From Phycisphaeraceae bacterium D3-23 (GTDB lineage Bacteria > Planctomycetota > Phycisphaerae > Phycisphaerales > Phycisphaeraceae): 64,000 nt of DNA. Every line of letters starts with the position of its first letter. Positions within the stretch are counted from its first letter, which is position 1. The stretch spans positions 3,286,001-3,350,000 of the forward strand of contig CP114179.1 in NCBI GenBank assembly GCA_039555135.1, written 5' to 3'. Shown here piece after piece: positions 42,881 through 54,777 of the stretch. A program made the position numbers and the translations under genes. The notes below the pieces were generated by a model. That model was not told the origin of the DNA. It saw nothing but the letters and a program-made list of their open reading frames with translations, and did no database searches.

Positions 42881-44545
42881 ATGACGACCCACGCCAACCC
42901 CGGGCTCCGTGCCGACGCCGTCGTTGCCGACGACGCCACGGCGGTGCCGCGTACGCGTGGTGCCGGGCGCGTCGGGCTGCTGCGGTTGTTGGAACTGGCG
43001 CTCGCGGTTGCGCTGGCGGGCGTGGTGTTTGCGCAGTTCGACAACCCGACGCAGCACATCGATGAGCTTTACCACGTGCTCGCGGCGAAGTCGCTGCTGA
43101 GTGATGGCGACCTGCTGATAGGTGAGGCCGGTGAGCCGTACACCCGCGCGCGTGGATTTACGTACGCGGTCGCGGGGAGCTTCAAGCTGTTTGGGCCGGG
43201 CGTGTGGCAGTCGCGCTTGCCGTCGATGTTGGCCGGGCTGTTGCTGGTCGGCCTGCTGTTCACATGGACACGTTGGCGGTTTGGCCGGCTAGCGGCCTGG
43301 CTGTGGGTCGGGCTTTTGCTGCTGTGCCCGCTGATTGTTTTTGCGAGCGAGCTCAGCCGGTTCTACATGGTGCAGGCGGCGGCGGTCGCGGGGATGCTGG
43401 TCGCAGCCGACGTGGTGCTCGATCAGTCGCTTACTCGGTGGCGTCGCGTGTGTGCGGTGGTGCTGGGTGTGGTGGCGACGGGTGTCGCGCTGCATGTCCA
43501 GCCGTCGAGCCTGTTCGCGGTGGCGAGTATTTTCGGCGGCGTTGTGCTTTGTGTGCTGTGGCGTTTGGGTGCGGAGCGTGCGCGGCCGATGCGTTGGCGC
43601 GCGGTTGTCATTGGTGGTGTCGTGTTTGCGGGTTCGCTTGCGCTGGTCGCGGGTTTGCTTTGGCTGGGCCCGATGCAGACGCAGTGGGCGAAGTACACCG
43701 GGGCGGCCGCGTGGGCGGCGGGCTCGCGTGATGATGCGACGTACTACCTGAGTTATTTTGAGCGGCTGCACGGCTGGCCGCTGATCCTGCTGCCGTTCGC
43801 GGCGGCGGTTGCTTGCTGGCGGTTCGGCTGGCGCGGGGCGTGGGTTCTGGCGATTTTCGCGGTGGCTTTTGTGGCCCATTCGTTTGGCGGCATGAAGGCC
43901 CCGCGCTATTTGCTTTGGGCGCTGCCGTACTTCTGGCTGATATTGGCGGTCGGCGCGTCGGGTCTGGCCGGCTGGCTGGGGCCGAGGCCCGCCGTTGGCG
44001 CTTCGCGTGCCCGGCTGGGCCTGCACCTGGGCGCGGCGGGTGCGGTCGTGGTGTTGCTCGCGCTTTCGGTGTCACGCACCAGCGGGTTCTATCAGACTCG
44101 GACGATGCTCAAAGGCGGGTACCATGCGTTTCAGTATTCGGACTGGCCCGGTGTCTTGCCGGTGCTGGAAAGTGACAGCGCGTGGGACGGGGGCGTGGTG
44201 GTCGCGAGCGCAGACAATAAGGCGATCGATGCGCTGGGCCGGTGCGACTACTCGCTGAGCTTGTCGCGTACGGAGGGCCGCGACGAGTTCGCGATGGACT
44301 GGCGAACAGGCGTGCCGGTGATCTCTAACGCGGCGTCGATTGATACGGTGGTTTCGGTGCACCGGTCGGGGATGATTGTCGTCGAGGAATCGCACTGGCG
44401 TGAGGGCTGGGCGGTATCCGATGAAGCGGCAGACCGGATCGAGGCGCTGGCCGAGCCGGTGACTATCGACCCGGCGCTGCGTCTCTTGGTGTTCCGATGG
44501 GAACACCCGTCGATGTGGAACGAGGGGAACGCTTCCGATGAATGA
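42881..44545 (+). CDS. GT-C (GT39-like) membrane glycosyltransferase
   Basis: A 554-residue protein with about 11-12 helices. The first periplasmic loop contains NPTQHIDELYHVLAAKSL, where the acidic pair matches the catalytic DE of PMT_2/ArnT-type enzymes, followed by TRARGFTYAVAGSFKLFG. A C-terminal soluble domain of about 140 residues follows the last helix. ATG 42881 is preferred; the ORF is open to 42818. It overlaps the next gene (WecG/TagA) by eight bases, suggesting the two are co-translated. Confidence 0.8.
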   Translation: MTTHANPGLRADAVVADDATAVPRTRGAGRVGLLRLLELALAVALAGVVFAQFDNPTQHIDELYHVLAAKSLLSDGDLLIGEAGEPYTRARGFTYAVAGSFKLFGPGVWQSRLPSMLAGLLLVGLLFTWTRWRFGRLAAWLWVGLLLLCPLIVFASELSRFYMVQAAAVAGMLVAADVVLDQSLTRWRRVCAVVLGVVATGVALHVQPSSLFAVASIFGGVVLCVLWRLGAERARPMRWRAVVIGGVVFAGSLALVAGLLWLGPMQTQWAKYTGAAAWAAGSRDDATYYLSYFERLHGWPLILLPFAAAVACWRFGWRGAWVLAIFAVAFVAHSFGGMKAPRYLLWALPYFWLILAVGASGLAGWLGPRPAVGASRARLGLHLGAAGAVVVLLALSVSRTSGFYQTRTMLKGGYHAFQYSDWPGVLPVLESDSAWDGGVVVASADNKAIDALGRCDYSLSLSRTEGRDEFAMDWRTGVPVISNAASIDTVVSVHRSGMIVVEESHWREGWAVSDEAADRIEALAEPVTIDPALRLLVFRWEHPSMWNEGNASDE

Positions 44546-45377
44546 CACGACGCTTGAGACCCGCCGCGCTGCGGAAGAAACGCCGAAACCCGCGCCCGGC
44601 GGCGAAGGCCCGGCGCGCATCGACGTCGGCGGCGTGTTGTTTGACCCGCTGACGGTTGCACAGACAATCGAGCATGTCGCCGGCGCCGCGGCGTCGGGCC
44701 AAGGGGGCTGGGTGATCACGGCCAACCTCGACCACGCCCGCCGGGCGCGGGTCGATGATGAGTACCGCGACATGCTGCGCGAGGCCGAGCTTGTCGTCGC
44801 GGATGGCGCGCCGATCATCTGGGCGAGCAAACTGCAAGGCGCCGCGCTACCCGAGCGCGTCGCGGGCTCGTCGATGGTCGAGCCGCTCGCCAGGGTTGCG
44901 GCCCAGCGCGGGCTCTCGATCTTCCTCATGGGCGGCACGCCGGGCACGGCCCAGGAGGCGGGCGACCTGCTGGTCGAGCGGTACCCCGGGCTCAAGATCG
45001 CGGGCGTTTCGTGCCCACCGATGGGGTTTGAAAAGGACGCCGCCGAGATGTCGCAGATCCGGGAAGACCTTTCGCGCACGAAGCCCGATCTGATCTACGT
45101 CGCGCTGGGCTCGCCCAAGCAAGAACGGCTGATCCGCGTGCTGCGGGGCGATTTCCCGGACGCCTGGTGGCTGGGGATCGGGATCAGCCTGAGTTTTCTG
45201 ACCGGCGAAGTGCAACGTGCCCCTTCCTACATCCAGCGGCTTGGGTTAGAATGGCTCCACCGCCTGGTTCAGGAGCCCCGCCGGCTCGCGAAACGGTATC
45301 TGGTCCATGGGCTGCCGTACGCTTGCCGACTCGGTTTCGGGTCGCTTGGGCGGCGGTTGTCGGGCCGGGACCGATAA
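44538..45377 (+). CDS. WecG/TagA/CpsF-family glycosyltransferase
   Basis: A 279-residue member of the WecG/TagA group, which adds N-acetylmannosamine(-uronate) or similar sugars to a lipid-linked GlcNAc. Conserved features are VLFDPLTVAQTIEHV, the central VVADGAPIIWASKL (D-G-x-P) and ALGSPKQERLIR. The GIGISLSFLTGEVQRAP region is also typical. A membrane-associated C-terminal appendage (LGLEWLHRLVQEPRRL) is normal for the family. It probably adds the second sugar after the priming transferase. Confidence 0.89.
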   Translation: MNDTTLETRRAAEETPKPAPGGEGPARIDVGGVLFDPLTVAQTIEHVAGAAASGQGGWVITANLDHARRARVDDEYRDMLREAELVVADGAPIIWASKLQGAALPERVAGSSMVEPLARVAAQRGLSIFLMGGTPGTAQEAGDLLVERYPGLKIAGVSCPPMGFEKDAAEMSQIREDLSRTKPDLIYVALGSPKQERLIRVLRGDFPDAWWLGIGISLSFLTGEVQRAPSYIQRLGLEWLHRLVQEPRRLAKRYLVHGLPYACRLGFGSLGRRLSGRDR

Positions 45378-45551
45378 CCGGGGGAGACTTGCGTGGGGGT
45401 CGCCGAGTGTAGCGCGCTATACTTGGCGGTAGGCCCAGTGGGCGGTGACTGGAGTGAACCGCCGACCTCGCCGATGGGCAGGTAGGCCGAACGGGAGAAA
45501 TGGCTTCGCATGGATCGGGCGACCGAGACGTGTGGGGCGTGAGGGAGCGTG

Positions 45552-46505
45552 ATGACTTTACGGATCGTTGAGCAAGACGTCTGGTCGCCCCGGCCCCAGG
45601 GCCTGGAGCGGGCGGATGCGTCGGGGCTGCCCGACCTGCGCGCGGTGGTGATGCTGGCAGGCGCGGTGCGCCCCGGCAAGCTGCGGCGCTGGTCCGGCCG
45701 AAGCGCGTTAGAGCTCCCCGTCGGCGCAAGCCGGACGGTGATGGACTGTTGGCGCGAGCAGCTATTGACGCTGGCGGAGACGCTGGGGATCGACCACCTG
45801 CCGGTGCGGGTGATGATGTCGGGCGACTGCGGGCTCAAGCCGGGGACCGAGCGGTTTGGCCGGGTCGAGATCAAGATCGAGCAGGACCCAAGCGCGTTCC
45901 GTGGGACGGCGGGCCTGATCTCGGATGTGTCGCGTCAGTACGAAGACTCAGACCAGGTGCTGATCAGCCACGCGGGCCAGCTGTTGTTCGAGCCGTTGAC
46001 GTCGATCGCGCGCGGGCTCGCCGCGCCGGCCGGTGATGTCACGATCGCGGTGGACCCGGCGGGTGTGCCCAGCGGGATGATGCTGGTGCGCTGCGGCTCG
46101 ATGCGCGGGGTCAACCCCGTGGGCTTTGTGGATATGAACGAACAGGCGCTGCCCGAGCTGGCCAAGGACCACCGCGTGAAGGTCGCGCGGTTTGCGTCGC
46201 CGCCGACGCGGTCGGTGCGGACGCTGGGCGGGTACATCGCGGCGCTGCGCGAGTACCACCGCAGCGCGTCTGGCCGGAAAGAAGCGCTTGGCCCATTCTC
46301 GGAGGACTGGCGACCGACGTTTGGGATCACCGAGCCCGGCGCGGAGGTCGCGTCGGATGCGGTGTTGCACGACTCGGTCGTTCTGCGCGGTGCGCGGGTC
46401 GAGTCCGGGGCGGTGCTGGTGCGTAGCGTGGTGTGCGACGGGGCGGTGGTCGCGTCGGGCCGGCACGTTGTCGATCAGGTGGTGGGCTCGGATCGGCCGA
46501 TATAG
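45552..46505 (+). CDS. Nucleotidyltransferase-like protein lacking the catalytic signature
   Basis: A 317-residue protein with the general layout of sugar-1-phosphate nucleotidylyltransferases: an N-terminal AVVMLAGAVRPGKLRRWSG strand-loop, a central DVTIAVDPAGVPSGMM region and a short C-terminal left-handed helix (SDAVLHDSVVLRGARVESGA). The pyrophosphorylase signature (G-G-x-G-T-R-L and the PK Lys) is absent, so it is unlikely to make nucleotide sugars and may be structural or regulatory. GTG 45549 precedes ATG 45552, and GAGGGAG lies just upstream. It is followed closely by the exosortase-like gene. Family placement is an inference from pattern. Confidence 0.65.
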   Translation: MTLRIVEQDVWSPRPQGLERADASGLPDLRAVVMLAGAVRPGKLRRWSGRSALELPVGASRTVMDCWREQLLTLAETLGIDHLPVRVMMSGDCGLKPGTERFGRVEIKIEQDPSAFRGTAGLISDVSRQYEDSDQVLISHAGQLLFEPLTSIARGLAAPAGDVTIAVDPAGVPSGMMLVRCGSMRGVNPVGFVDMNEQALPELAKDHRVKVARFASPPTRSVRTLGGYIAALREYHRSASGRKEALGPFSEDWRPTFGITEPGAEVASDAVLHDSVVLRGARVESGAVLVRSVVCDGAVVASGRHVVDQVVGSDRPI

Positions 46506-46546
46506 GGAAGAGAAGCGAGCGAGAGCTGCGGGCCGAGCTGACTGAC

Positions 46547-47449
46547 TTGAAACTGATCCCCCGTGTACTTCTGAAGAACGGCTGGACCCGTAGCGACGCG
46601 GTCCGGATCTTCGCCGCGCTGGTCGCGGCGGCGGTCGCCACGTACCCGGCCTGGGTCCACCTCTTCAAGACCGCGGTCCGCTACGACCACTCCCGCCCGA
46701 TCGTCCTGGTCCCCCTGATCGCCGGCTGGCTGGTCTGGGTCCGACGCAGCCGGTTCCGCTATGTCCGGCCCGGCGAGTTCTGGCCCGGGTGGATCATGCT
46801 CGCGGCCGGGGCACAGCTCTACTACATGGGCAACTACTGGTTCGGGCTCAAGTCCGCCTGGTACCTGGGCGCAGTCCTGATGGTCGGCGGCGCGCTCGTC
46901 GTCACCACCGGCGCGTCGGTCATCCGGCAGTTCCGCCCGGCCTGGCTCGTGCTGCTGCTGCTCGTCCCCGTCCCCGTCACGCTCGCAAACGTCATCGCGT
47001 TGCCCATCCAGATCGCCGAGGCCCGTGCCATCACTTTCCTCTACGGCCTCATCGGGATCGACGCGAACCTCGTCCAGGTCTCGGGCGAGTACCTGCTCAC
47101 GGTCGGGTCGGCGGTCCTGCCGATCGAGAACGCGTGCAAGGGTATGGCCACGGCGATGTCGCTATTGCTGATCTGCTACGGCTTCGTTTTCGGCGCGCCG
47201 CTACGCATGCCGGTCCGGCTGGGGCTGCTGATACTAAGCCCGGTGATCGCGTTGATCTGCAGCGCCTTGGCGCTACTATGTACGCTCTGGGTCTACGCCC
47301 AGACGGAGATGGTCACGGCCGACACCGTACGGGCGGTCTCGGAGTGGGCGACGATTTTGTTGGGGTTCATGCTGGTGGCGGCGCTGCTGCGGGCGCTGGC
47401 GTGGGCGTCGGTGCCGGTGTACGAATACCACCTGGCCAACGAGTACTAG
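46547..47449 (+). CDS. Divergent exosortase-like membrane protein
   Basis: About 300 residues and eight helices, with the exosortase/archaeosortase fold order. A Cys at residue 197 in LPIENACKGMATAMSLLL aligns with the nucleophile of canonical ACSGLR. The later positions of the expected Arg (SN-x-x-R) and His (H-x-x-x-G-W) read CSALAL and AVSEW, so those triad members are not evident. It would process PEP-CTERM proteins such as that at 40146 if active. The start is uncertain: TTG 46547 is favoured because GTG 46433 would overlap the upstream gene by 73 bases with low-complexity sequence. Confidence 0.75.
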   Translation: MKLIPRVLLKNGWTRSDAVRIFAALVAAAVATYPAWVHLFKTAVRYDHSRPIVLVPLIAGWLVWVRRSRFRYVRPGEFWPGWIMLAAGAQLYYMGNYWFGLKSAWYLGAVLMVGGALVVTTGASVIRQFRPAWLVLLLLVPVPVTLANVIALPIQIAEARAITFLYGLIGIDANLVQVSGEYLLTVGSAVLPIENACKGMATAMSLLLICYGFVFGAPLRMPVRLGLLILSPVIALICSALALLCTLWVYAQTEMVTADTVRAVSEWATILLGFMLVAALLRALAWASVPVYEYHLANEY

Positions 47450-47769
47450 GCGCGGGGGGCGTGATACTTTAGAATGCAGAGATGATTCGTGGGGGTGTCG
47501 GTCCCACCGGGCCGATGGGCAGGGAGAGAAGGCGTGGCAGAGCGGCTCGGGGGGGCCGATAACGTCGAGCAAACCGGGCAGGTGGGCAGACGCCCGCCGG
47601 CGGGCATTAACATGGCCAGATGCGTGGCCGATGAACCGTATGTCCGCCCGGCCTGTTTGGGTTGGGCCGGGCTCGCGGATCGAACGAACCAGGCACTTTT
47701 TAGCAACGGGTAACTACAATGATCCGTCGAGGAACACCCGTCGGCCAGGCCGGCGGGGGAGAGGCAAGA
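47450..47769. other. Leader region of the chain-length kinase gene
   Basis: About 320 bases with no convincing gene; the small open frames here lack protein character. A -10-like TAGAAT lies at 47470-47475 without a good -35. The motif GGCCGATAAC at 47554-47563 recurs in two other intergenic regions. A strong ribosome-binding site (GGGGGAGAGG, 47755-47764) precedes the kinase start. A long 5' untranslated leader is possible. Confidence 0.5.
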
Positions 47770-50157
47770 ATGCACAGCGACCCTTTACTGACACTAAACG
47801 ACCAAGTCGGCGACGAGAACTCCGGCCGCGCTAAGCGGGCGAAGCTGTTCGCGCTGCTGCGTGGGCGTTGGCACTGGGCCATCATCCTCGCGCTGCTGCT
47901 CGCGGTCGCCGGGGCCTACGCCGGGTACATGAGCGAGAAGCACCTGTACCAGGCGACGTCGTACATCAACATCAAAGAGAACGTGGTGTACGGCGGCGAC
48001 ATCGAGTGGCGACTCACCGAGCAGTACAACACGTACGTCGCGACGCAGATGAAGAAGATGCAGGAAGACGTGGTGATCCATGTCGCGATGGAAGACCCCG
48101 AGTGGCGCGAGTCGCAGACGCTGCGTCCGCCGGAGCTGGGCGAGTACACGTCTTCCGCGATGTTCTCCCGTGCGATCCAGATCACGCCGCCGTCGCGGCG
48201 CGACCCGATGATCTACGTCTCGTTTGTGGATGCCGACCCGAAGACGGCGCAGGCCGGACTTAACGCGCTGATGGCGGCGTACAAGCGGGTCCATAGCGAC
48301 GAGGCCACGGTTTACAGCTCCGAGACCCTGCGCACGCTGCAGAACCTCCGCCAGAGCCAGACGCGCAAACGCGAGGAGCTTCTCAACGACCGTGCGAACG
48401 TGATGCGCGAGGAAGATATCCCGACGCTCAACAATTCGCTCGAAGCCAAGCTCAGCGCGTTGGCGATCCGTGAGCGCGAGCTCGAATCGCTCAACCTCCG
48501 GATGAAGAACTGGATCGACATGGACGGCAACCCGACTCCGGCGATGCTCGATGAGTTGAGCCAGGCCGACCCGCAGATGGAGTTTCTGCAAGCCGAGCTT
48601 GGGGCGCTGGAAGACCAGCTCGAACACGAGATCGAAGTCAGGCAGCGCGGCGACAACCACCCGATGGTGCAGTCGCTACGCCGGGCCATCGGCATCGCCG
48701 AGCGCAAGATCCTCGACCTCGAAAACTCGTACCTCCAGGGCGATGTCGTCGTGGTCATGCCGCCCGAGATTCAGGCCCAGCTGGTCGAACGCGACGGGCT
48801 GATCGAGGCGATCACCAAGCTCAACGCGAACATCGATGACCTGTCACGCAAGAAGCAGGCGATCGACGAAATCAATATCGAGTTGCTCGAGATCCGGGAG
48901 CGCATCGCGCAGACCAACCGCTTGATCGATGACCACGAGGCCACACAGATGGCGGTGAGTCAGAGTGACCGCGCGCAGGTTGAGCTGGGCCCCGCCGCCT
49001 CGACGCCCAGCAAGCCGTACAACCTGATGAAGCGTCGCCAGATGGCGGCCGCGGGCGGGCTCGCGGGGATCGTCATGGGCTTTGGCATGGTGATGCTTGT
49101 GGGCCTGATGGACCGCCGCCTGCGGCATGTCACCGACGCGACCGCCGGGATGCCCGACGCGAACGTGCTGGGTATTTTGCCGACGCTGCCCAACAACCTC
49201 AGCGACCCCGCCGAGGCCGAGGCCGCGGCGCACTGTGTTCATCACATCCGCACGCTGCTGCAGATCGGCGGCAACGGGCGTGTCTTCTCCGTCACCAGCC
49301 CCACGGCCGGCTCGGGCAAGAGCTCGCTCACCAGCGCGCTGGGGCTCTCGTTCGCGACCTCACAGACCAAGACGCTGGTCATCGACTGCGACCTCGTCGG
49401 CGCGGGGCTTTCCCGGCGCATGGGCACGGTCGTCCATCAGCCGCTCGACGTCATCATCCGCAACAACGCGCTGCTGGATGAAGACCAGCTCGACCGCGCG
49501 ATGACCATCGCCGCGTCGGAGGGCACGGCGCTCGACATGGTGCTGCTGCGTGACGGCATGATGACTGAGTCGGAGATCGAGACCGCTGTACGACTGCAGC
49601 GCGACACGTCGCTGGGCGTCTTGGAGGCCTGCACCCCGGGCCGGCTGCGCAGCTGCGTCGCCGCCGCCGATGTGCCCAACCTCTTCATCCTGCCCGTGGG
49701 CAACGCCCGCCCGGCCGACGCGGGCAAGCTCTCGCCCGTCACGATCCGCTCGCTGATCCAGCAGGCACGCGAAGACTTCGACATTGTTCTGGTCGATACC
49801 GGCCCGGTGCTCGGCTCGCTCGAAGCGTCCATCGCCGCGGCCGAGGCCGACGGCACCGTGCTGATCGTCTCGCGCGGCGACCAGAAGTCGCTCGTGCAGC
49901 GCTCGCTTACCCAACTCGCCTCGGTCCACGCGAACGTCGCCGGCATCGTCTTCAACCACGCCCTGGACAACGACCTCGCGCACACCTCGTACGCCAGCAT
50001 TGTCTCCCAGGACCGTCGGCCCTCTAAGGAAGTCCGCCGCAAACGCCTCCCCGACTCGGGCAAGGTCGCGCGCTACGGCCCGCTGGGCTCGGCCGTCGCG
50101 TCCTACTCCGAAGAGGGCGGCGACAACGGCTCGATGAACGGCCACGCCGACAACTAA
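47770..50157 (+). CDS. Wzz-type chain-length determinant/BY-kinase with inserted MshEN-like repeats
   Basis: A 795-residue polysaccharide co-polymerase and bacterial tyrosine kinase. It has a TM helix near residue 40, a large coiled-coil periplasmic Wzz region and a second TM near 430. The cytoplasmic ATPase follows: Walker A Lys517 in TAGSGKSS, Walker A' VIDCD (537-541), Walker B Asp676 in IVLVDTG. Residues 558-617 are an extra segment of two similar 23-residue helical motifs. The tail has only three spread tyrosines instead of a Tyr cluster. ATG 47770 is chosen over 47719 because of the strong ribosome-binding site. It would set EPS chain length. Confidence 0.88.
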   Translation: MHSDPLLTLNDQVGDENSGRAKRAKLFALLRGRWHWAIILALLLAVAGAYAGYMSEKHLYQATSYINIKENVVYGGDIEWRLTEQYNTYVATQMKKMQEDVVIHVAMEDPEWRESQTLRPPELGEYTSSAMFSRAIQITPPSRRDPMIYVSFVDADPKTAQAGLNALMAAYKRVHSDEATVYSSETLRTLQNLRQSQTRKREELLNDRANVMREEDIPTLNNSLEAKLSALAIRERELESLNLRMKNWIDMDGNPTPAMLDELSQADPQMEFLQAELGALEDQLEHEIEVRQRGDNHPMVQSLRRAIGIAERKILDLENSYLQGDVVVVMPPEIQAQLVERDGLIEAITKLNANIDDLSRKKQAIDEINIELLEIRERIAQTNRLIDDHEATQMAVSQSDRAQVELGPAASTPSKPYNLMKRRQMAAAGGLAGIVMGFGMVMLVGLMDRRLRHVTDATAGMPDANVLGILPTLPNNLSDPAEAEAAAHCVHHIRTLLQIGGNGRVFSVTSPTAGSGKSSLTSALGLSFATSQTKTLVIDCDLVGAGLSRRMGTVVHQPLDVIIRNNALLDEDQLDRAMTIAASEGTALDMVLLRDGMMTESEIETAVRLQRDTSLGVLEACTPGRLRSCVAAADVPNLFILPVGNARPADAGKLSPVTIRSLIQQAREDFDIVLVDTGPVLGSLEASIAAAEADGTVLIVSRGDQKSLVQRSLTQLASVHANVAGIVFNHALDNDLAHTSYASIVSQDRRPSKEVRRKRLPDSGKVARYGPLGSAVASYSEEGGDNGSMNGHADN

Positions 50158-50238: not shown

Positions 50239-51780
50239 ATGATCTCAACCGCCGACGACAGCTCGACCGACCTCCGCGACCACACGGTCTGGGGGCTGGA
50301 TGCGGTCCAGCTTCACGACCGGTTCTGGGCCGCCCGCGGGGTCCAGGTCGTCCGGCAGGGCGAGCCCTCCGAGATCGTCCGGCACGCCGAGCTCTACCTG
50401 CTGATCGACGGCGACTGCCTGTCGCTGTTCCGGCTGGGCCAGCTCGTCGATACGCTCAGCTGGCTCAAGCCGCAGGTGCTCTTTGTCCGCATCCACGACA
50501 CGCACGCCCCGGGCTACCGCGAGCGCGTGCTGACCGATGAGGGCGACAACTTCACGGGCTTTGAGCGCGCGTATCGGCAGATCGACTACCGGCTGGGCCG
50601 GGTCGCGCTGACGCCGCACGAAGACGTCGCCCGCGCCTGGCAGACCGCGCGCGAGCCCAGTAAGGCCTGGCGCGAGCTGCGCCGATCCATCCCCGCCCAC
50701 CAGCGCTCGACGATCTCGGTCGACGGCTGTGTCTTCGACCGCAGCAACAGCGAGCAGGTCATGGGCTTCGTCCGCGAGCTGATCACGGTGTGGAAACGCC
50801 CCGATGCGACGATCAAACGCGCGAGCAAGATCAAGACCGACGCGTGGGGCGACCGTCAGACCTCCGCGGCCGACACGCGGTTTGTCGGCCCTGTCTGGGT
50901 CGGCGCGGGCCGAGAGTTGGAGGGGATCGACAGCGTCGTCGGGCCGGCGGTGTTGTGGGACGACCCCGACCACCGCCCGGAGATCGATTCGCTTGAGTGG
51001 CACGCGATCGAGCCCTCCGAGCACTACACCGGGCCCGAGCTGGGCCGGCGTCGTCGCTCGCTGTTCCGGGTCTCTAAGCGCATCTTCGACGTGCTGTTCG
51101 CGCTGCTCGCGCTGGCGGTGACGCTGCCATTTTATCCGCTCATCATGCTTGCAATCATGATCGAGGATGGTCGGCCGTGGTTCTTCGCCCACCCGCGCGA
51201 GTCGGTCGGGGGCAAGGAGTTCCCCTGCCTCAAGTTCCGGACGATGTACAACAACGCCGAAGAGATCAAGCAGAAACTCGCCCAGGAAAACCAGGCGGAC
51301 GGCCCGCAGTTCTTCATCGACAACGACCCGCGCATCACGAAGGTCGGCAACTTCATGCGCAGGTTCAACATCGATGAGCTGCCGCAGTTCTTCAACGTGC
51401 TCATCGGGCAGATGTCCGTCGTGGGCCCGCGCCCAAGCCCGTACAAGGAAAACCAGTTCAGCCCATCGTGGCGCGAGGCGCGGCTCTCGACCCGGCCCGG
51501 GGTTACAGGGCTGTGGCAGGTTAAGCGTTCGCGCGAACCGGGCAAGGACTTCCAGGAATGGATCCGCTACGACATCCGGTACGTCGAGACGATGTGCTGG
51601 AAGCTGGATATCTACATCATGCTGCAGACGGTGCTGGTGTGTGCGGGGCTGACCCAGAAGCCCGACAAGCCCGGGCCCGAGCAAGCGGGAGGCGACGCGC
51701 CGGATGTGCCTGTGGCCAGCATCTCGGGTGACACGGCGGCGGTGGAGACGCCCGCCGATTCCGGCGACATCCCCGCCTGA
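50239..51780 (+). CDS. Polyprenyl-phosphate sugar-1-phosphate transferase with N-terminal nucleotidyltransferase-like module
   Basis: A 513-residue priming enzyme of the WcaJ/WbaP/PGT type. The catalytic half starts near residue 275: KRIFDVLFALLALAV membrane re-entrant helix, FPCLKFRTM, RRFNIDELPQFFNVL, MSVVGPRPSPYKEN and TRPGVTGLWQV. It would load the first sugar-phosphate onto undecaprenyl phosphate. The N-terminal ~270 residues lack the usual four TM helices and instead look like a degenerate nucleotidyltransferase plus left-handed-helix fragment (FVGPVWVGAGRELEGIDSVV). That domain order is unusual for the family. Confidence 0.88.
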   Translation: MISTADDSSTDLRDHTVWGLDAVQLHDRFWAARGVQVVRQGEPSEIVRHAELYLLIDGDCLSLFRLGQLVDTLSWLKPQVLFVRIHDTHAPGYRERVLTDEGDNFTGFERAYRQIDYRLGRVALTPHEDVARAWQTAREPSKAWRELRRSIPAHQRSTISVDGCVFDRSNSEQVMGFVRELITVWKRPDATIKRASKIKTDAWGDRQTSAADTRFVGPVWVGAGRELEGIDSVVGPAVLWDDPDHRPEIDSLEWHAIEPSEHYTGPELGRRRRSLFRVSKRIFDVLFALLALAVTLPFYPLIMLAIMIEDGRPWFFAHPRESVGGKEFPCLKFRTMYNNAEEIKQKLAQENQADGPQFFIDNDPRITKVGNFMRRFNIDELPQFFNVLIGQMSVVGPRPSPYKENQFSPSWREARLSTRPGVTGLWQVKRSREPGKDFQEWIRYDIRYVETMCWKLDIYIMLQTVLVCAGLTQKPDKPGPEQAGGDAPDVPVASISGDTAAVETPADSGDIPA

Positions 51781-52254: not shown

Positions 52255-54777
52255 ATGCGAGACCGAAACGATACGCGCCGGGCCGACGGCTTCGAGGCCC
52301 TCGAGCCTCGCGTCCTGTTCAACGGCGACATCTCGATCCTCCCGCTGGGCGACTCGATCACCGCGTCGTCGGGCTCCAACTTCAGCTACCGCTACTACCT
52401 CTGGGAGCGCCTGGTCAACGACGGCGTCGACTTCGACTTCGTCGGCAACGAGGACACCAACCGCGGTAGCACACCCAACTGGCCAAGCGTGAACGGCCAG
52501 TCCTTCGACCGCGACCACGAGGGCCACTCGGGCCACCGCGTCGATCGGATCAACGACAAACTGCCCGGCTTCCTGAGCCACTACACCCCCGACATCGCGC
52601 TGGTCCACCTCGGCACCAACGACATCATCCAGGGCCAGTCCGCATCCTCCACCGCAGACGAGCTGCGCACCACCATCGCGCTGCTGCGTCAGGACAACCC
52701 CGACGTCACAATCCTACTTTCGCAAATCATCCCGCTCGACCGGACCCATGGCGAACGGGTCGATGAACTCAACGCGTTGCTGCCTGGCATTGTCAACGAC
52801 CTGTCGACCGGCCAATCGCAGATCGTCTTGGTCGATCAGAACACAGGTTTCGATGTGGATGACGATACCTACGACGGCATCCACCCCGACCGCAGCGGCG
52901 AAGAGCTCATGGCGCTGCGCTTCTATGAGGCGCTCGACGGCTTCCTCGATAGTGCCCCCTCACAGAACTCCCGGCCCAACGCGAACGCCGGCGCCGACCA
53001 GACCCTGACCGATAGCAACAACAACGGCACGGTCACGTTCCGCCTCGATGGCGGATCGAGCAGCGACAGCGACGGCTCGATCGCGTCATACGTCTGGCGC
53101 ATCAACGGATCGACCGTGGGGACAGGTGCTCGGCCGTCGGTTTCCGTGGGGATCGGCACGCACAGTGTCCAGCTGACGGTGACCGACAACAACGGCTCGA
53201 CCGACACCGATACCGTGACGCTCCGCGCGCTCGCGCCGACCGCGCCGCCGCAGAACAACACCGCGCCCAGTGTGAACGCCGGGCCCGACCGCACATCGGT
53301 CACGAGCAACGGCCGGGTGACGCTGAGCGGCTCGGTGAGCGATGCCGATGGGGACAACCTGAGCACGAGCTGGTCGGTCGTCTCCGCACCCGGCTCGGTC
53401 TCGTTCGCCAACGCGAGCAGCCCGACCACCCAGGCGACGCTCACCGGCGAGGGCACCTACGTCCTCCGCCTGACCGCGAACGATGGCCAGAGCAGCCGGA
53501 GCGATAACGTCGAGATCACCATCATCTCGCCGACCTCGCCGCCCGGCGGTGGGGGTGGCGGCAGCTCGAACAACGCGCCCAGTGTCAACGCGGGCCCCGA
53601 CCGCGTGTCGTTCACAAGCAACGGCCGGGTGACACTCGCCGGCTCGGCGAGCGATCCCGACGCAGACAATCTCAGCACGACATGGTCCGTCGTCTCCGCA
53701 CCCGGAACCGTCGTGTTTGCGGATGCCAACGACCCACGCAGCCAGGCGACACTCATCGGCGACGGCGTCTACGTCCTCCGATTGACCGCGAGCGACGGCA
53801 CGACTTCACGCTCCAACGATGTCGAGATCTCGATCAACCCGTCAAGCCCGCCGTCCGGCGGGGGTGGCGGCGGCAGCTCGAATAGTTCGCCGCAAGTGAA
53901 CGCCGGGCCCGACCGCGTGTCCTATACGAGCAACGGCCGGGTCACGCTCGCGGGTTCTGCGAGTGACGTGGACGGCGACAACCTTACGACGAGTTGGTCG
54001 GTCATCTCCGCGCCGGGCGGTGTGGTCTTCGCCGACGCGACCGACCCGACTACCCAGGCGACGCTCTCCGGTGACGGCGTGTTTGTCCTCCGTCTGACGG
54101 TCAGCGACGGCACCGTGACGCGCACCGACGATGTCGAGATTTCGATCAACCCGACGTCGCCTCCGTCAGGTGGTGGTGGGGGGGGCGGCAGCTCGAACAG
54201 CTCGCCGCAGGTGAACGCCGGGCCCGACCGCGTGTCGTTCACGAGTAACGGCCGGGTGACACTGGCCGGCTCGGCCAGCGATCCCGACGGGGACAACCTC
54301 ACGACCACCTGGTCCGTCGTCTCCGCGTCTGGCACGGTTGCCTTTGCGAATGCCAGCGATGTGCGTAGCCAGGCGACCCTCACCGGCGATGGCGACTACG
54401 TCCTCCGCCTGACCGTCAGCGACGGCACGACGACGCGATCCGACGACGTCCGCATCTCCATCAACCCCACGGCCCCGCCCCCCGGTGGCGGCTCGAACAC
54501 CGCGCCCAGCGTCAACGCGGGGCCCAGCCGTGTCTCGGTGACGAATAACGGCCGGGTCACCCTCGCGGGCTCGGTGAGCGATCCGGATGGCGACGCCGTC
54601 ACGACGACGTGGTCGGTGGTTTCCTCACCCGGCGCGATTTCGTTCGACGACATCAACGCCCCCAACAGCCAGGCGACGCTCTTCAGCGCGGGGACCTACA
54701 TCCTCCGGCTGACCGCGAGCGACGGCAACTTCACCCGCACCGACGACGTATCGATCACGATCCAGCGGCCGGTATGA
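52255..54777 (+). CDS. LEPR-XLL secreted SGNH hydrolase with PKD-like repeats
   Basis: An 840-residue surface or extracellular protein. The N-terminus carries the planctomycete LEPR-XLL signature (GFEALEPRVLFNGD, residues 12-25) seen on very large exported proteins. A SGNH hydrolase domain follows (LPLGDSITA, HLGTNDI, DGIHPDRSG). A PKD-like domain comes next and then five ~100-residue repeats separated by Pro/Gly/Ser linkers. No C-terminal PEP tail is visible. It probably acts on or binds matrix polysaccharide. AAGGA at 52242-52246 supports the start. It ends 12 bases from the convergent metallopeptidase gene. Confidence 0.87.
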   Translation: MRDRNDTRRADGFEALEPRVLFNGDISILPLGDSITASSGSNFSYRYYLWERLVNDGVDFDFVGNEDTNRGSTPNWPSVNGQSFDRDHEGHSGHRVDRINDKLPGFLSHYTPDIALVHLGTNDIIQGQSASSTADELRTTIALLRQDNPDVTILLSQIIPLDRTHGERVDELNALLPGIVNDLSTGQSQIVLVDQNTGFDVDDDTYDGIHPDRSGEELMALRFYEALDGFLDSAPSQNSRPNANAGADQTLTDSNNNGTVTFRLDGGSSSDSDGSIASYVWRINGSTVGTGARPSVSVGIGTHSVQLTVTDNNGSTDTDTVTLRALAPTAPPQNNTAPSVNAGPDRTSVTSNGRVTLSGSVSDADGDNLSTSWSVVSAPGSVSFANASSPTTQATLTGEGTYVLRLTANDGQSSRSDNVEITIISPTSPPGGGGGGSSNNAPSVNAGPDRVSFTSNGRVTLAGSASDPDADNLSTTWSVVSAPGTVVFADANDPRSQATLIGDGVYVLRLTASDGTTSRSNDVEISINPSSPPSGGGGGGSSNSSPQVNAGPDRVSYTSNGRVTLAGSASDVDGDNLTTSWSVISAPGGVVFADATDPTTQATLSGDGVFVLRLTVSDGTVTRTDDVEISINPTSPPSGGGGGGGSSNSSPQVNAGPDRVSFTSNGRVTLAGSASDPDGDNLTTTWSVVSASGTVAFANASDVRSQATLTGDGDYVLRLTVSDGTTTRSDDVRISINPTAPPPGGGSNTAPSVNAGPSRVSVTNNGRVTLAGSVSDPDGDAVTTTWSVVSSPGAISFDDINAPNSQATLFSAGTYILRLTASDGNFTRTDDVSITIQRPV
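53255..54770 (+). repeat. Five tandem coding repeats of about 310 bases
   Basis: Copies begin near 53255, 53568, 53880, 54198 and 54495, with 297-318 bases between starts. Each encodes VNAGPDR...SNGRVTLAGS...TTQATL...YVLRL followed by a Pro/Gly/Ser linker. They are closely similar at DNA level, so recombination could change copy number. Confidence 0.85.

Follow-up and report, generated by a model that had tools for sequence, protein, structure and literature searches.

Does the ATPase domain of a planctomycete polysaccharide co-polymerase contain a receptor for cyclic di-GMP (c-di-GMP) and, if so, does the receptor still bind its ligand? This question is raised by a gene in a 64,000-nucleotide stretch of the Phycisphaeraceae bacterium D3-23 genome (contig CP114179.1, positions 3,286,001 to 3,350,000), which was analysed at its full length and is called the window below. 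The gene (47719..50157, plus strand) encodes an 812-residue protein combining a Wzz/GNVR part with a Wzc-type ATPase, and an earlier note on this DNA had pointed to an MshEN-like double motif inside the ATPase domain. In its known relatives, the MshEN_N domain is a four-helix c-di-GMP-binding module. We consider it likely, judging from sequence, that the insert is a domain of this type that binds c-di-GMP in relatives with intact motifs and that persists in the window copy as a non-binding remnant.

An MshEN-type domain nested in the ATPase

The insert is a 53-residue MshEN_N-type domain (49441..49599, plus strand; aa 575-627), recognized from profile, alignment and shuffle evidence, that lies approximately 15 residues past Walker A'. 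It consists of motif I (PLDVIIRNNALLDEDQLDRAMTIA; 49441..49512) and motif II (ALDMVLLRDGMMTESEIETAVRLQ; 49528..49599), two 24-residue motifs joined by a 5-residue linker, which is the exact layout of MshEN. The DNA at 49441-49622 translates as the earlier note quoted it, and the location between Walker A' and Walker B is borne out in the 812-residue open reading frame (ORF; aa 552-559 and 688-696, respectively). Two details change: the motifs are 24 rather than 23 residues long, and the residues numbered 558-617 in the note are aa 575-634 of this ORF, an offset of 17 that suggests numbering from Met18, an alternative start.

Against NF053729, the NCBIfam model of an MshE-related c-di-GMP motif, the window copy scores 25.2 bits (E = 1e-5), below the 38-bit cut-off. 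Three relatives with intact motifs, scored singly, exceed that cut-off with 57.4-64.6 bits, and 32 of the 33 aligned insert members match the model (best E 3.7e-21). When a profile of the 33 inserts was compared with the PDB, the whole insert was covered in matches to PilF (2e-25) and to the MshE-c-di-GMP complex 5HTL (9.3e-15); several PilB ATPases were also matched. A hidden Markov model (HMM) was then built from 19 inserts of relatives that keep both ligand glycines, with the window protein and its clade left out. This model gives the window insert 36.7 bits; among 18,962 scored sequences with the insert's own residues shuffled, the maximum is 13.1. The scores of the relatives against NF053729, the profile matches to PilF and MshE and the shuffle control together make homology of the insert to MshEN firm at the sequence level, and the family resemblance proposed earlier is thereby upheld. 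An example of an intact insert, that of L050, is KIGQILKREGLITQQQLDMAMKVAATSHRRLGEILVDLGFLTEADVARGLTLQ.

Distribution and origin of the insertion

A search of other planctomycetes, which the earlier note had suggested, found the same insert in 35 Phycisphaerae proteins from four families. Among 397 genomes of the class, continuous matches across the insert were obtained in approximately 35 (families f1, f3, f8 and f10); in others, the match is split into two parts that flank the insert position. Alignment of nine sister proteins shows a clean absence of approximately 58 residues (net) at the same point, a loop flanked by the segment that follows Walker A' and by the G(V/L)L(D/E)A segment. Viral contigs were searched and contained no relatives, and a contig scan started from peptides of that protein in the window returned one close relative; the distribution given here is accordingly that within Planctomycetota.

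When mapped on an ATPase-domain tree, the presence of the insert amounts to a single change, with support of 99/92. This tree is unrooted and comprises 42 proteins, with the insert columns excluded and long-branched rows removed; it replaces an earlier tree in which a distant outgroup gave very long branches. Because the tree is unrooted, gain and loss cannot be told apart from it, but gain is favoured since the VpsO, CapB and BceF ATPases are insert-free. The MshEN_N domain thus probably entered the loop after Walker A' once, in Phycisphaerae.

In three proteins from other planctomycete families (L101, L102 and L103), this loop holds longer inserts that are unrelated, and the Walker A-to-B distance is approximately 30-60 residues greater than that with the MshEN insert. 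The loop therefore tolerates insertions and looks like an insertion hotspot. The genome of D3-23 also encodes a paralogous co-polymerase ATPase, L002 (G000:C1:4431257), which was considered as a second carrier and rejected, as it has just a short linker with a stretch resembling half of the motif pair. Such a shorter linker with one half-motif-like stretch (SLDDIAVGQGYI, SLDNIVIEQGYLSEDD) is seen in L002, L071 and L073, and may be a vestige of this domain.

Conservation of the ligand site

In MshE, the residues contacting c-di-GMP are R9, L10, G11, L25, L29, Q32, R38, L39, G40, L54, L58 and Q61, as given in the text of Wang et al. 2016 (PMC5013675). Both ligand glycines are kept in 22 of the 35 inserts. 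The 19 relatives used for the HMM were selected for having both, so that G11 and G40 are each present in 19/19 by choice; Q61 is likewise present in 19/19, and R, K or L is found at position 9 in 17/19 and at position 38 in 14/19. The first motif position has been described as R, K or L, with Lys associated with high affinity (PMC11731258), which fits the KIG of many of these relatives.

The window copy is different. Motif I is degenerate at the MshE positions R9, G11, G18 and Q32, which read P9, D11, A18 and A32; in motif II, R38 and G40 are replaced by A38 and D40, while G47 and Q61 are kept. The replacement of Gly by Asp in both motifs had been noticed earlier and is correct. The loss is wider than that, however, and takes in both Arg/Lys positions, both ligand glycines, one turn glycine and one Gln; of the two outcomes proposed before, lost or changed binding, non-binding is the likelier. 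The eight members of the window clade share this erosion: R9, G11 and R38 are each found in 0/8, G40 in 1/8 and Q61 in 5/8, and hydrophobic core cells are kept in 107/128. A new ligand signature common to the clade was looked for and not seen. The residues replacing those lost vary between members (LD/LD, VE/LK, LD/LM, FA/LA and LS/EA), a pattern more consistent with loss than with a new ligand shared by all of them. On the ATPase tree, the GG and no-G states of the inserts account for four changes, and a single clade of all no-G copies is not rejected (approximately unbiased test, p-AU 0.18). In one genome (G389), two co-polymerases carry the insert: L067 has both ligand glycines, whereas L060 lacks the first.

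Published variants make loss of binding in the window copy likely. The MshE variants G11L and G40I show no stabilisation by c-di-GMP in the assays described by Wang et al. (PMC5013675). In a PilF construct, affinity falls 10-30 fold when the third residue of motif II is changed from Gly to Ala, and binding is lost when the native Ser, and not Arg, is present as well (PMC12002112). Selection on the insert points in the same direction: in the window pair (L014/L044), the ratio of non-synonymous to synonymous substitution rates (dN/dS) is 0.32 in the insert and 0.13 elsewhere in the protein, compared with 0.04 and 0.05 in an intact pair (L053/L026), values that come from few pairs and from 53 codons. 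As these counts are small, the apparently weaker constraint on the window insert is a trend. Taken with the loss of the ligand residues, it makes it very likely that the window copy no longer binds c-di-GMP.

Proposed role and alternative explanations

In the intact relatives, the insert is most likely a c-di-GMP-binding domain. Uptake of the ligand would reshape the helical bundle beside the Walker A' strand; in the GSPII-B domain of PilF, local unwinding occurs upon binding (PMC11731258). Such a change may alter ATP use or the ATP-dependent assembly of the co-polymerase ring, which in turn would change the export or chain length of an exosortase-linked polysaccharide. In the window lineage, where ligand contacts are lost and the hydrophobic core is mostly kept, this switch has probably been cut, and the insert would persist as a structural or interaction element.

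Several observations weigh against this interpretation, in addition to the small basis of the dN/dS values. Q32 is present in 0/19 of even the intact copies, with a small residue at this position across the whole group, and in PilF a Gln to Glu change cut affinity 77-158 fold (PMC11731258); the intact copies may consequently bind more weakly, and it is chiefly this missing residue that calls for caution over them. Structure prediction was also of little help. AlphaFold modelled the ATPase domain, with two sequences, at a predicted local distance difference test score (pLDDT) of 37, and the insert alone, from a single sequence, at a pLDDT of 53 with two short helices; a Foldseek search of the latter model against the PDB returned nothing with an E-value under 0.5. 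These low-confidence models, along with a Pfam scan of the window insert in which no MshEN family match was above threshold, are what might be expected if an unrelated helix pair resembled MshEN by chance. This explanation is refuted at the profile level by the family matches to PilF and MshE (2e-25 and 9e-15), and with none of the 18,962 shuffles equalling the score of the window insert we find it hardly credible.

The absence of Gln32 would be better accommodated if the insert, although of MshEN fold, had at no time sensed c-di-GMP in these ATPases and had instead served throughout as a scaffold for oligomer contacts or partner binding. A loop that also holds the unrelated inserts of L101-L103 may simply tolerate extra helices, and XpsE, as presented in the text of PMC5013675, shows that non-binding MshEN folds exist. 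A pure scaffold would not, however, need the two ligand glycines that 22 of 35 divergent copies have kept, and the 19 glycine-keeping copies compared also retain Q61 without exception and mostly R, K or L at the first motif position. With one intact pair strongly constrained as well, we regard a scaffold from the outset as unlikely. It is less probable still that the window copy itself binds c-di-GMP weakly, or another ligand through its changed residues. The detection of Bd1509 and Bd1596 despite less conserved sites (according to the text of PMC5013675) shows that the motif need not always be perfect, and a dN/dS of 0.32 means that the window insert is still under purifying selection; yet the window clade has no new conserved residue where the old ones were replaced, and G11L and G40I, which affect the same glycines, abolish stabilisation in MshE. 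The reading we prefer therefore remains an MshEN_N domain that senses c-di-GMP in the intact relatives and has probably ceased to do so here.

Domain organisation of the co-polymerase

The co-polymerase ORF matches AAA_31, ParA, TIGR01007 and TIGR03007, and its Pfam and NCBIfam ATPase matches are interrupted by the insert, with one part on each side. Walker A (SPTAGSGKS; 49297..49323, aa 527-535), Walker A' (TLVIDCDL; 49372..49395) and Walker B (DIVLVDTGP; 49780..49806), all on the plus strand and read from the sequence, are of the MinD/Mrp type. Walker A is conserved in alignment A2, in which D78 and D80 of Walker A' and D215, T216 and G217 of Walker B are invariant. The region around aa 504-516 (AHCVHHIRTLLQI), which in Wzc-type kinases contains the E-x2-R-x2-R oligomerisation motif, has H-x2-H-x2-R instead; in the same alignment, its second His and its Arg show little or no variation.

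The earlier note had called this protein a tyrosine kinase. Bacterial tyrosine kinases (BY-kinases) are defined by Walker A, A' and B motifs together with a C-terminal tyrosine cluster (PMC8394532). This protein has the three Walker motifs but not the cluster: its C-terminal tail (49957..50154, plus strand) has 3 Tyr in 66 residues, and most relatives have 0-2. Autophosphorylation on a tyrosine cluster thus appears unlikely, and Wzc-like co-polymerase ATPase is the safer name, with "tyrosine kinase" doubtful. In place of the cluster, the tail carries a conserved R(Y/F/L)GP(L/V/I)..AVA-type motif, which is also found in insert-free relatives. Two low-molecular-weight tyrosine phosphatases are encoded in the genome, both distant from the co-polymerase locus.

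Gene cluster and c-di-GMP signalling

The co-polymerase gene lies between those of an exosortase of the EpsH family (46433..47449), immediately upstream, and a polyprenyl glycosylphosphotransferase (Bac_transf; 50239..51780), immediately downstream. The same cluster includes a WecG/TagA/CpsF glycosyltransferase (44538..45377) and, on the basis of weak matches, a nucleotidyltransferase-like protein with a hexapeptide (LbH) C-terminus (45549..46505); all are on the plus strand. As most of the examined relatives have the five genes together as well, these constitute a conserved exosortase-linked exopolysaccharide (EPS) cluster. Downstream of it (52255-54777) lies, judging from the sequence alone, a gene for a large protein whose N-terminus resembles SGNH hydrolases and which contains several repeats of approximately 100 residues (NAGPDRVS...NGRVTLAGS).

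The source genome encodes 5 GGDEF domains, 6 PilZ domains and 4 other places where MshEN scores over the cut-off, and GGDEF was found in all 33 genomes tested. Loss of c-di-GMP signalling as the cause of the worn motif was accordingly rejected.

Comparison with known systems

The insert shares with the MshEN/GSPII domains of MshE, PilB and PilF (NF053729; PDB 5HTL) the pair of 24-residue motifs, the 5-residue linker and the hydrophobic register, and its intact relatives retain (R/K)(L/I)G and the second Gln. It differs in being a 53-residue helical N-subdomain without the C-terminal subdomain, in being nested in another ATPase fold and in the missing Gln32, and the window copy additionally lacks the ligand residues. 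Relative to the BY-kinase domains of Wzc, CapB, VpsO and BceF, the order of Walker A, A' and B and the ATPase homology are the same (VpsO 1.1e-28), whereas the window protein has approximately 58 extra residues after Walker A' and no C-terminal tyrosine cluster.

The earlier note knew of no BY-kinase with this insertion. An MshEN-type domain together with a BY-kinase-type ATPase is in fact already known, in EpsG (TIGR03029), which also belongs to an exosortase EPS cluster (XrtB-type); we verified this architecture on record L090, from a Mitsuaria sp. 7 plasmid. In EpsG, however, MshEN is at the N-terminus, ahead of Walker A, and EpsF supplies the Wzz part as a protein of its own, whereas the window protein is a single Wzz-ATPase polypeptide with MshEN between Walker A' and Walker B. 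The window protein scores 55 bits against TIGR03029 (cut-off 313.8), with the ATPase part alone matched. EPS biosynthesis in Methylobacillus is named among MshEN proteins in the text of Wang et al. 2016, probably in reference to EpsG, and the nested arrangement is absent from the architectures in the main text of that paper (PMC5013675). Literature on MshEN with tyrosine kinases, autokinases or co-polymerases, or on BY-kinases with c-di-GMP, did not describe the nested case either, so that nesting inside the ATPase fold is new as far as we found.

Direct control by c-di-GMP is known for synthase-type polysaccharide systems, through PilZ on BcsA and MshEN on NfrB. NfrB, a c-di-GMP-activated glycosyltransferase, resembles the present case in having MshEN on a polysaccharide enzyme, and 21 of 33 inserts match the NfrB model; there, MshEN is appended to the glycosyltransferase rather than nested in an ATPase. 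In the searchable literature, no direct c-di-GMP receptor is described in a Wzy/Wzc-type co-polymerase. A broader proposal, possible and somewhat short of probable, is that Phycisphaerae have such a receptor in the catalytic core of the co-polymerase, gating the ATPase ring, and that the signal was later cut in some lineages, this one included. If this is true, a second messenger would directly gate the ring that determines polysaccharide export or chain length. The intact copies, worn copies and insert-free sisters together represent a natural test case for how an ATPase becomes connected to a second-messenger module and is disconnected from it again.
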